Under the pieces are notes generated by a model. That model saw nothing but the letters and a program-made list of their open reading frames with translations. It had not been told where the DNA came from and searched no databases. 49,206 bases of DNA from a virus. The DNA lies in IMG/VR virus record IMGVR_UViG_3300042350_005031, positions 1-49,206 of that record. One strand, written 5' to 3'. This document shows, in pieces, positions 27,604-45,275 of this stretch (the stretch's first letter is position 1; each line of letters starts with the position of its first letter). The position numbers and the translations under genes were made by a program.

Positions 27604-28434
27604 ATGAACGTTCTCGTCCTCGGTGGCTCAGGCCGGCTCGGGCGTCGGTTGGTTCCCGCGCTGCACGCGGCCGGGCACACCGTCGCCGCGCCGACCCGAA
27701 CCGAGTGCGACGTAGCCGAGCCCGGCGACGTCGGCCGCCAGTTTCGCCGAGGGCGGCGCGGACCCGCGATCGACCTCGTCGTGTGCCTCGCCGCTTACGC
27801 CGACGTGGTTGGCTGCGACTCGAACCCGGCGAAGGCGAAGGCCGGCAACATCGACACGGTGAGGACCGTCGGGACCGCTTGCGCCGACAGGTCGGTGCCG
27901 TGGCTCTGGACGTCCACCGACTACGTCGTCGCGGGCGGCCCGACGCCGGCCGAGCCGGTGCAGGACGTGCTCGCGTTCGGGCGGCTTCGGATGAACAACG
28001 CGGGCCGCTACGCCGAGACGAAGCTCGAAGGCGAGGACGTCGCGCTCGCCCACTGCGCGACGGTCTGCCGGATCGCATTCTGCGACCCTGACGACGCGGC
28101 GAAGTGGGGGTGGGTCGACGGCTACAACCTCGCGTCTCGGGAGTGGGTCGAGCGGACGGCCGCGCGCCTCGTCCTTGCGGTCGCACTTGCCGCCGAGCGG
28201 TGGAACGCCGGGCGGATCGTCCACGTCGGCCCGGTTGCGGGCCTCGATGCCGGACCGCTCGGCCCGTGGCGCACGCGGGAGCAACTCGTTCGCCAGCGGT
28301 TCGGGAACACGCACCCGTCGCTCGTCCGGGTCGTCAGGTCGCCGGCCGAGCGTCGGTTTGTCGGCGGCGGCAACGGGCCGGGCGATACCCGGTTCGCCCG
28401 CTGCGACCCGCGGCTCGCGCTGGACCCCGAATGA
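27604..28434 (+). CDS. RmlD-like NAD(P)-dependent sugar reductase
   Basis: 276 residues of the short-chain dehydrogenase/epimerase superfamily. V-L-V-L-G-G-S-G-R-L-G-R-R-L at 3-16 is the nucleotide-binding loop; E-C-D-V-A near 37 marks the strand-end Asp; V-V-C-L-A-A-Y near 60; W-T-S-T-D-Y-V-V near 102 and Y-A-E-T-K-L-E-G-E near 138 hold the catalytic Thr, Tyr and Lys. This pattern best fits dTDP-4-keto-6-deoxysugar reductases (RmlD or relatives). ATG 27604 is favoured over GTG 27598 because GGGGGAGG lies upstream at proper spacing. It overlaps the glycosyltransferase gene by ATGA and with the RmlA/RmlB genes would produce a dTDP-deoxysugar. Confidence 0.82.
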   Translation: MNVLVLGGSGRLGRRLVPALHAAGHTVAAPTRTECDVAEPGDVGRQFRRGRRGPAIDLVVCLAAYADVVGCDSNPAKAKAGNIDTVRTVGTACADRSVPWLWTSTDYVVAGGPTPAEPVQDVLAFGRLRMNNAGRYAETKLEGEDVALAHCATVCRIAFCDPDDAAKWGWVDGYNLASREWVERTAARLVLAVALAAERWNAGRIVHVGPVAGLDAGPLGPWRTREQLVRQRFGNTHPSLVRVVRSPAERRFVGGGNGPGDTRFARCDPRLALDPE

Positions 28435-42380: not shown

Positions 42381-45275
42381 ATGCCCGTCGACGATCCCGC
42401 CGTTCTTCCGCCCTTGCCGACCCTTCGTTCGCTGCACGACGTCCTGATCGTCGTCCCTACCTGCGGGAGCCCGGCGACGGTCGTTCCCGGCGTTCGCCGG
42501 CTCCTGAAGCATACCGACGGGCTCCGCGTTCGGCTGGTCGTCGTGGGCAACCCGGACGACGCGGCGAAGTGGTCCGAGGCGCGCGGGATGATGCTCGCGG
42601 CGGCGGCCGGCTCCGACGCCGAACTCGACCTGCTCGACCTCGGCGCGCCCGTCGGCTTCGGCGCCGCGGTCAACGCGGGGATCGCGCGCTACCGCTCCGG
42701 GTTCGGCGCGCTCCCCGCGCATACCGTCGTGATCAACGACGACGCCCACGTCTGCGCCGGCTGGCTGTCGGGCATGATCGAGGCGCTCGACCCGGTCGAC
42801 GGCGTGGTCCTGACCGGCGAGCCGCCTGACGAGCGCGGCGTGCGGGCGCGACGCGACCCGACGCTCGCCGTCGGTCGGATCGGCATGGTCGGCCCGGTGT
42901 CGAACCTCGTCGCCGGCGTGGCGCAGCTACGGCTCCCCGACGACCTCCGGCGGGCGCCCTACGACGTGATCGGGGCGAACGTGCGCCAGCAGTCGGGCGG
43001 GGACGTCGAGGTGGTCGACTTCCTGTCGGGGTTCTGCGTGTTGTACCGGCGCGAGTGTCTGCTCGACCTGCTCGCCGACGACGGCAACCTGTTCGACCCC
43101 GTGTTCAAGATTGGCGGCTACGAGGACAACGACGTCTGCGTCCGCGCGGAACTCGCCGGCTGGGGCCGGGTGGTCGCCCGCTCGGTCTACGTCCACCACG
43201 ACGGCCACCAGACCCTCGATCGGATCGCACCCGGCGCGAAGCGGGGCATGGCGAACCGGCGCACCTACCTCGACAAGTGGGCTGGCACGTTCCGGACGAC
43301 CGGGACGAAGCTCGTCGCGCTCTACCGGGTGAAGCTCGAAACGGCGCAGGACCTCGCCTATCTGCGCGCTTCGATCTCACGCATGGGCGAACTCGGCGAC
43401 GGGATCGCGATCCTGCTGAACGGCAACCCGCTCGAAATGACGGGCTCGCCCGACTTCGCGCAGATCGCGCCCTCGCTGCCTCCCGACGACCACGCGCTGC
43501 TCCGCGGGTGTTCGGGGAAGGACCGGGCCGGCGTCGCGGCCGAGTTGGCCGCGTGGGCGACGGCGGCGGCAAGGGGCGGCGACCACGCGCGCGGGACTCC
43601 GCTCGGCGTCGTCTGCGAGGTGTGGGCCGGCGAGTTCAACGAGCGCGACGAGCGGAACCACCTGATCGGAATGGGCGAGGCGCTCGGCGCCGACTGGCTG
43701 TTCTCGGTCGACCACGACGAGGTGCCGGAGGGCCGGGTCGAGCGCGCGACCGTCGAACGGCTGATGCGGGCTCCCGACCCGCTCGTCTGCTCGTGGGACG
43801 TCGCTTTCACGACGCTGTGGGACTCGCCGCGCACGCAGCGGATCGACCGGCCGTGGGGCGACGGCGGCAGCTATCAGGGCGGCATGCGCGGCTTCCGGTT
43901 GTTCCGCGCCTCGGCCTCGCCTCGCCGCCCGCGGCGAATCGCGGCCGGGAACGAGATCGGCCTCCACTGCGGCAACGTGCCGGACGCCGACCCACTCGCC
44001 AAGCGGGTGTCCTCGATCCGGATGCTCCACTTCGGGTACGTCCGCCGGTTCGACCGGGTCCGGAAGCACGCGCGCTACCAGCGGCTCGACCCGAGCCCGA
44101 ATCGGATCGCGACCGGGGGCGGCTACGCGCACCTCGTCGCGGAGGAGAACATGACGCTCTCGCCGGTCGTGTCGGTGAACGCGATCGGCCTCACGATGAT
44201 GCTGCACGCCGGCGAGACGGCGCACGACCTTGCGCGCCAGCTTGACCAGTACCACGGGCTCGTCGACGCGGCGGTGCTCGTCTGGACGGGCGAGTGGAAC
44301 GCCGACGATCCGTCGACCGGGCCGTCCGACGACATGCAGCGGATCGCAAGCGTCTACGGCGCGACGTGGGAGCACCAGCCGCTCGACGACGACTTCGCCT
44401 CGGCTCGCAACGCGGGGCTCGACGCCCTGCGCGCGATCAAGTCGCCCGTGACCGGCTCTCCGATCGCATGGGCGCTCGTGGTCGACCCCGACGAACTGCT
44501 CGCCGACACGTTCGGCGACGTCGTCGCGCTCCGCCGGATGGCCGAGTGCTCGGACGCCTACGGGTTCCTCGTCCGGTTCGCGAACCACCGCCCGGCGGCC
44601 AGCGGCGAGCCGCCGACGCTCTCAGAGGCGATCCGGTTCGTCCGGCTCGATCCGGGCAGGCTCGTTCGCTACTCGGGCCGGGTCCACGAGGGATTCGACG
44701 AGGCATTCCGGGCGATCGAAGCGAGCGGGGACCGCCCTCGGGTTCGGTACGCGCCGTTCACGGCGCACAACCCCGGCCTCGGCACGGACCCCGCCGAACT
44801 CGAACGGAAGGTGCGGTTCTACCAGCGGCTGCTCGTCGCCGAGTTGACCGACAACCCGCGGAACGCCTCGGCGTGGACGTCGCTCGGGATGCAGTTCACC
44901 AACGACGGCCACGAGGAGAAGGCGGCCGAGTGCTTCAAGCGCGCGATCGCCTCCGACCCGACCGGGTTCCTCGCCTACCGCGAACTCGGGCTCGCGAAGC
45001 TCCGTGAGGGGCGAACACTGTTCGAGATGGTCACCCGCTGCTTGCCGCAGGGGCACGACTACCACCGAGTAGCGACCGCCGGCGTCGACTGGTTGAGCCG
45101 GTTCGCCCCGGATCAACCGCTCGTCGGCCTCGCCGCCCGCGGCCCGGATCACGTCCCGGTGGAGGCCGACGTCGAGCTTCCGGCGTTCCCGCCGATCGAC
45201 GATGAGAGCAATCCGTTCGCCGGCGTGTTCGACGACCTTGTGCCGGCGAAGCCGGCGGAGGTCGATCCGGGGTAG
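42381..45275 (+). CDS. Multi-domain glycosyltransferase with TPR region
   Basis: 964 residues from ATG 42381 with AGGAGG seven bases upstream. Domain 1 (about 15-300) is GT2-like: V-L-I-V-V-P-T-C-G-S, G-F-G-A-A-V-N-A-G-I-A, V-V-I-N-D-D-A-H-V, G-G-Y-E-D-N-D-V-C-V-R. Domain 2 (about 310-580) has a second transferase pattern, L-F-S-V-D-H-D-E-V-P near 440. Domain 3 (about 590-820) resembles SunS-type GT2: M-M-L-H-A-G-E-T, D-D-D-F-A-S-A-R-N-A-G-L-D, W-A-L-V-V-D-P-D-E-L-L. Residues 830-910 include tetratricopeptide-like helices (A-W-T-S-L-G-M-Q-F-T, A-A-E-C-F-K-R-A-I-A). Three catalytic units in one chain suggest stepwise glycan assembly on one acceptor. Its stop codon forms the -10 of the next gene. 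Confidence 0.85.
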   Translation: MPVDDPAVLPPLPTLRSLHDVLIVVPTCGSPATVVPGVRRLLKHTDGLRVRLVVVGNPDDAAKWSEARGMMLAAAAGSDAELDLLDLGAPVGFGAAVNAGIARYRSGFGALPAHTVVINDDAHVCAGWLSGMIEALDPVDGVVLTGEPPDERGVRARRDPTLAVGRIGMVGPVSNLVAGVAQLRLPDDLRRAPYDVIGANVRQQSGGDVEVVDFLSGFCVLYRRECLLDLLADDGNLFDPVFKIGGYEDNDVCVRAELAGWGRVVARSVYVHHDGHQTLDRIAPGAKRGMANRRTYLDKWAGTFRTTGTKLVALYRVKLETAQDLAYLRASISRMGELGDGIAILLNGNPLEMTGSPDFAQIAPSLPPDDHALLRGCSGKDRAGVAAELAAWATAAARGGDHARGTPLGVVCEVWAGEFNERDERNHLIGMGEALGADWLFSVDHDEVPEGRVERATVERLMRAPDPLVCSWDVAFTTLWDSPRTQRIDRPWGDGGSYQGGMRGFRLFRASASPRRPRRIAAGNEIGLHCGNVPDADPLAKRVSSIRMLHFGYVRRFDRVRKHARYQRLDPSPNRIATGGGYAHLVAEENMTLSPVVSVNAIGLTMMLHAGETAHDLARQLDQYHGLVDAAVLVWTGEWNADDPSTGPSDDMQRIASVYGATWEHQPLDDDFASARNAGLDALRAIKSPVTGSPIAWALVVDPDELLADTFGDVVALRRMAECSDAYGFLVRFANHRPAASGEPPTLSEAIRFVRLDPGRLVRYSGRVHEGFDEAFRAIEASGDRPRVRYAPFTAHNPGLGTDPAELERKVRFYQRLLVAELTDNPRNASAWTSLGMQFTNDGHEEKAAECFKRAIASDPTGFLAYRELGLAKLREGRTLFEMVTRCLPQGHDYHRVATAGVDWLSRFAPDQPLVGLAARGPDHVPVEADVELPAFPPIDDESNPFAGVFDDLVPAKPAEVDPG

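Follow-up and report, generated by a model that had tools for sequence, protein, structure and literature searches.

In the mycobacteriophage Corndog (cluster O), an O-methyltransferase gene and three glycosyltransferase (GT) genes lie between the portal and protease genes, and the authors proposed that their products modify the capsid (PMC4351075). Glycosylation of mycobacteriophage capsid and tail tube proteins was reported by Freeman 2023, as cited in PMC12619734 and PMC11600133, and the glycans are placed at the C-termini in PMC12619734. Here, we describe a set of sugar genes in a 49,206-base IMG/VR record of a high-GC tailed phage (IMGVR_UViG_3300042350_005031). The whole record is called the window below, and genes are numbered by their start positions in it. 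Genes were called from codon-position GC, and families were assigned from Pfam, NCBIfam, phrog and PDB searches. The first-pass annotation of this DNA had described a large cassette of glycan enzymes among the virion genes, and our gene calls and family searches bear this out: positions 27604–45275 hold 15 forward genes, 12 of which encode plausible sugar or glycan enzymes. Our interpretation turns on the last of these, 42381 (42381..45275, forward), which encodes a 964-residue multi-glycosyltransferase, abbreviated multi-GT.

Relatives of the phage were collected as IMG/VR contigs found via the capsid protein (49–65% identity). Their GC ranges from 0.34 to 0.72, and by gene content and order they are an uncultured siphovirus family with one shared layout: portal, capsid, adaptor, a small post-adaptor protein, a few variable genes, stopper, multi-GT, a gp10-like gene, terminator and tube. 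The exceptions are G041, where the stopper homologue is further downstream, a contig from a metagenome-assembled genome (MAG), which has it on the opposite strand, and some records in which no stopper homologue was recognised. Each of the 30 records that reach from the adaptor to the gp10-like gene has a homologue of 42381 in between, a count that includes near-identical records and thus represents fewer than 30 independent lineages. Of 32 records, 30 were matched by a multi-GT profile; the others were L043, which ends shortly past the stopper, and G039, which has no recognised tail genes. The divergence of multi-GT tracks that of the capsid (Mantel r 0.79, 0 of 2000 permutations), as does that of the adaptor (0.79) and the tube (0.82). 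Since the gene is found in every spanning record and has diverged in step with the capsid, the glycosyltransferase is ancestral and the neighbouring sugar genes are the variable part. Judged by its position and divergence, multi-GT belongs to the core genes of the neck module in this family.

The AlphaFold model of 42381 (pLDDT 87) comprises three GT-A domains followed by a helical TPR (tetratricopeptide repeat) tail (helices 804–908), which was also supported by TPR family matches; the protein matches PF13641 (2.1e-8). A profile of 26 homologues matched SunS (5.8e-7), GmaR and ThuS over domain 3 and the TPR region, and in domain 3 the DxDE (D702, D704, E705) and HE (H769, E770) motifs do not vary among the 26 sequences. 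When the model was searched with Foldseek, matches were found to K4CP (1e-14), SunS (8e-12), ThuS and polypeptide GalNAc-transferases, and heparosan synthase also scored. SunS and ThuS, labelled S-glycosyltransferases in their PDB entries, act on bacteriocin peptides. The likeness of domain 3 and the TPR tail to SunS, ThuS and GmaR points to a polypeptide as the acceptor of 42381. The TPR domain of FlmG binds its flagellin substrate (PMC7591256); GmaR transfers GlcNAc onto flagellin, and a comparable role has been proposed for its TPR region (PMC9638930).

A further link to the neck came from the GT2-like glycosyltransferase 28431 (28431..29633, forward), which has no Pfam match of its own; its orthologue in the distant relative G016 has a weak match to PF00535. 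A profile built from stand-alone post-adaptor proteins only was searched among 902 proteins and matched the first ≈70–90 residues of 28431 and its orthologues (G016, 1e-9; L098, 8e-8; window, 4e-5), so that about the first 70 residues of 28431 correspond to the small post-adaptor protein. The real N-termini scored 21.5–39.0 bits (28431 itself 21.5), compared with ≤10.4 bits for 2000 shuffles of each. In G016 and L098, the fused gene comes directly after the adaptor. The fusion in these three phages ties the cassette glycosyltransferase to a neck-region protein, and gives a specific acceptor hypothesis. The post-adaptor protein family itself (L055:12014-12412, L083:12176-12454 and relatives) has a ≈60-residue domain and a Pro/Lys/Ala-rich tail, and searches with it gave no informative family match.

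The other cassette enzymes, all encoded on the forward strand, include three that resemble those of dTDP-rhamnose synthesis: an RmlD-like NAD-dependent reductase (27604..28434; PF04321, 6.1e-20; G016 orthologue 33% identical), an RmlA-like sugar-phosphate nucleotidyltransferase (30633..31451; PF00483, 3.8e-25; TIGR01208 rmlA, 1.3e-27, under the equivalog cut-off) and an RmlB-like dTDP-glucose 4,6-dehydratase with TDE and YxxxK motifs (31448..32554; TIGR01181, 3.1e-48; PDB RmlB, 6e-37), a homologue of which is found in most relatives. Together with an RmlC-like protein encoded elsewhere in the same phage, we infer that these make a rhamnose-like dTDP-6-deoxyhexose. They are followed by a B12-binding radical SAM enzyme, a probable C- or P-methyltransferase (32551..33996; PF04055, 3.2e-23, and PF02310; 54% identity to G016), two S-adenosylmethionine (SAM) methyltransferases (34429..35178; PF13649, 6.3e-8; and 36261..37049; PF13489, 1.8e-17), each with a G016 orthologue, and a conserved enzyme that by eye is GT-B-like or glycerophosphotransferase-like (35175..36251; no Pfam or PDB match; G016 orthologue 36%). 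A GDSL/SGNH hydrolase, or esterase (37385..38152; PF13472, 6.2e-19; G016 orthologue), a type I phosphodiesterase/alkaline phosphatase superfamily enzyme (38182..39162; PF01663, 3.4e-7; 52% identity to G016) and a GT2 glycosyltransferase (39672..40688; PF00535, 2.3e-5; 51% identity to G016) complete the set. Two small forward genes (33993..34307 and 39166..39675) have no family match, and PDB sequence searches with 28431, 35175, 38182 and 39672 gave no match. At most five small reverse-strand open reading frames (ORFs) break up the cassette. The shared late promoters assumed in the first-pass annotation stay putative: a scan for sigma-70-type promoters found 0 sites, with 0.5 expected.

The cassette had been thought to separate the connector from the stopper-like and tail genes. 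Its borders stand, with the head–tail adaptor 26982 on the left (26982..27578, forward; phrog_442, 1.3e-15; kept in nearly all relatives) and neck and tail genes from 45285 on the right, but a stopper-like gene, 41228 (41228..41839, forward), lies within it. The AlphaFold model of 41228 (17 relatives in the alignment; pLDDT 89.5) matched PBSX XkdH, the lambda neck protein and the T1 stopper in Foldseek with probabilities of 0.99, 0.99 and 0.94, with no E < 0.001. From its fold and position, the protein, which has homologues in relatives, looks like a neck protein of the stopper type into which a beta domain is inserted. This splits the cassette, with 11 enzymes on the adaptor side of the stopper and multi-GT beyond it.

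Across the relatives, the contents of the cassette interval suggest a variable sugar chemistry. In most, the set is compact: small genes, an RmlB-like dehydratase or epimerase and, in many cases, a methyltransferase related to 25240 (25240..25764, forward; a SAM methyltransferase matching phrog_32762 at 2.4e-16, whose counterpart adjoins the stopper in compact relatives). Extra genes in the same interval include a sulfotransferase (L067), TylF-type methyltransferases (L043 and G016), RmlC and a sulfatase-like enzyme (G016) and a DegT-type sugar aminotransferase (G037). Of the 12 cassette enzymes, 11 are reciprocal best hits between the window and G016, a correspondence beyond chance for phages with only 49% capsid identity. 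As judged from these orthologues, the large cassette is an expansion common to the window and this one distant relative; pattern scans with two cassette genes found no third phage carrying the expanded set. The G016 orthologues are in a different order and some are on the opposite strand. Because of this, and because multi-GT is ancestral, we rejected a scenario in which the entire cassette was inserted as a single mobile block. The idea of an insertion, which the first-pass annotation had put forward, thus holds for the extra sugar genes and fails for the glycosyltransferase, which that annotation had missed as an ancestral component.

We consider it probable that the phage encodes a cytoplasmic pathway by which a virion protein is glycosylated as the particle is assembled. 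The modified site is probably near the neck, and the glycan would be of a rhamnose-like 6-deoxyhexose type. That multi-GT holds the same spot in essentially every readable relative makes it likely that the family sugar-coats part of its own particle. In the proposed pathway, the RmlA, RmlB, RmlC-like and RmlD-like enzymes would supply the dTDP-6-deoxyhexose; the TPR tail of 42381 would hold a neck or other virion protein while its third GT domain attached the first sugar; the remaining two GT domains, with 28431 and 39672, would lengthen the chain; and the radical SAM enzyme, methyltransferases, GDSL hydrolase and phosphodiesterase would trim or cap the glycan. Candidate acceptors are the post-adaptor protein, the inserted beta domain of the stopper, the capsid and the tube. 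No flippase, polymerase, lipid-linked GT or polytopic membrane protein was found among the cassette proteins by a hydropathy scan and family searches, and the highest 19-residue hydropathy among the enzymes was 1.9.

Several observations weigh against this interpretation. The C-termini of the capsid and tube show no obvious Ser/Thr-rich tail, if Ser/Thr-richness is assumed to mark an acceptor tail as in the mycobacteriophages, although such a tail may not be obligatory. The RmlC-like gene lies ≈13 kb past the window (L011:16773-17405) and its match to PF00908 (3.5e-5) is under the curated cut-off, while RmlD-like 27604 matches over half its length, residues 1–156 in the N-terminal half only. 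The stopper call for 41228 is a fold probability with no significant E-value. In a few relatives, domains 1 and 2 of the 42381 homologue have degenerate motifs or lack them, and the top Foldseek match of 42381 is a polysaccharide polymerase, not a protein GT. The glycan and its acceptor are both predictions.

That top match, to the two-domain chondroitin polymerase K4CP, together with the heparosan synthase score, is what would be expected if multi-GT were a K4CP-like polymerase, whose product would be a polysaccharide, free or attached to the virion, and not a short glycan linked to protein. However, a likeness to K4CP is expected for any tandem GT-A protein, and the gene is kept where its first domains are degenerate or missing, with the TPR/SunS-like domain as the conserved part; we give this reading very little weight. 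Almost as doubtful is an action on the host surface, in which the cassette would alter an O-antigen, capsule or S-layer glycan for superinfection exclusion or progeny release. Genes of the dTDP-rhamnose type are frequent in surface polysaccharide clusters, and late phage genes are expressed at a time when superinfection exclusion could matter, but the cassette lacks the membrane and lipid-linked components listed above and in every spanning relative the core GT is a fixed part of the neck module. The first-pass annotation had left a virion glycan and a host-surface change as its main options. The position of multi-GT, its likeness to peptide and protein GTs, the post-adaptor fusion and the lack of polytopic membrane proteins favour the former and disfavour the latter.

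The cassette might instead glycosylate phage DNA bases, perhaps on top of a 7-deazaguanine modification, and so evade restriction. The window does carry a putative 7-deazaguanine DNA-modification route at 1371–7951 (FolE, QueD, QueE-like, QueC and DpdA-like genes, with UDP-GlcNAc 2-epimerase and ParB-like genes). Homologues acting on DNA bases had been named beforehand as the finding that would speak against a virion or host-surface role; Pfam and NCBIfam searches matched no cassette protein to a DNA-glucosylating family. Yet the same interval in G043 holds, on the reverse strand between adaptor and stopper, a TET-associated DNA glycosyltransferase (L103:13606-14826; PF20691, 4.2e-28), with QueC in the same interval. 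A C5-cytosine methyltransferase-like gene was also seen near this glycosyltransferase. The interval can thus take DNA-modification genes, and we therefore retain this reading, although as an improbable one. Among genomes larger than 70 kb, multi-GT is present in all eight and QueC in four, so the core enzyme occurs without 7-deazaguanine genes; moreover, the solved enzymes nearest to domain 3 in sequence modify peptides or flagellin, and multi-GT travels with the neck genes. Glycosylation of the virion can also be put in a broader form, which we offer as tentative and rather unlikely in full: the whole family would build a neck glycan, using the core three-domain GT, on the post-adaptor protein or the stopper beta domain, and swappable sugar genes would vary the glycan from lineage to lineage as a phage surface-variation system.

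The only match to the family in GTDB genomes was the MAG contig mentioned above, a 78,066-bp contig (L107; G044 contig 36) in a Myxococcales MAG. It has a 141-bp direct terminal repeat, which makes it probable that the contig is the genome of a free phage placed in the MAG by binning, and probably a complete genome of the family. Myxococcales was therefore not adopted as the host, and among 284 genomes of the phylum of the MAG no other one matched the family.

The virion genes of the window are in the order terminase 15294, portal 18049, capsid 22864, adaptor 26982, cassette, gp10-like 45285, tail-completion-like 45826, tube-like 46987 and tape measure 48427, in which the gp10-like and tube-like genes are named from position alone. 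The former (45285..45803, forward), the right border of the cassette, has no family match and was placed by conserved order; the tail completion or terminator-like gene (45826..46260, forward) matches PF11367 just under the cut-off (8.6e-5). A reverse-strand ORF (41859..42242) has a homologue in the same place in L049 (36%). An HNH endonuclease gene with HTH domains lies between the capsid and adaptor genes (23906–24733), and an M15 peptidase gene, probably an endolysin, was found downstream of the tail genes (L011:13413-13949). At the left end of the contig, the reverse reading of positions 3–284 contains an octad-like repeat (PATALPLY/S) that possibly stopped the assembly. Near-identical contigs in the same collection match most of the window at 99–100% identity. 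The contig L006 is the same phage from another sample, with 99.7% identity from ≈8578 on; leftward it is 81–87% identical or unmatched, which suggests recombination in the DNA-modification region.

Among GenBank phages, no sequence match was found for multi-GT, for the glycosyltransferase 39672 or for 35175, and the capsid matched only the Leptospira phages LE3 and LE4 (28%), for which no glycosyltransferase is annotated in the stretch that was read. Streptomyces phage SF3 was considered as a parallel, having a B12 radical SAM gene in common, but its setting is unrelated and it was set aside. Compared with bacterial rml operons, the window has RmlA, RmlB and RmlD-like genes, and G016 has RmlB, RmlC and RmlD, but the Rml matches of the window are under equivalog cut-offs and its RmlD is shortened. 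Like SunS, ThuS and GmaR, 42381 has a GT2-type GT-A domain followed by a helical or TPR region, with domain 3 matched by both profile and fold; unlike them, it has two extra GT-A domains upstream, and the identity is low. Several GT-A domains per polypeptide are also found in BFVD multi-domain GTs of uncultured Caudovirales and giant viruses (best match A0A6J5LLV3, E 1.4e-25), which differ from 42381 in being only ≈14% identical.

The closest parallel is Corndog, in which a methyltransferase gene and several GT genes are likewise embedded in the virion structural operon. The set in the window differs in being located at the adaptor-to-neck site, in having about three times as many enzymes, including those for sugar-nucleotide synthesis, and in its fused three-GT and TPR enzyme. 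Virion glycosylation has so far been reported in a few mycobacteriophages, whereas here a glycosyltransferase appears as a core neck-module gene across a broad family; if these virions are glycosylated, sugar-coated phage particles would be far more widespread than known. The sets of the family, which range from compact ones to one of 12 genes, also form a natural series in which the role of such glycans could be studied. By its arrangement, the system in the window would be of the Corndog kind, with a larger set of enzymes and a core GT that has no sequence match in GenBank phages.

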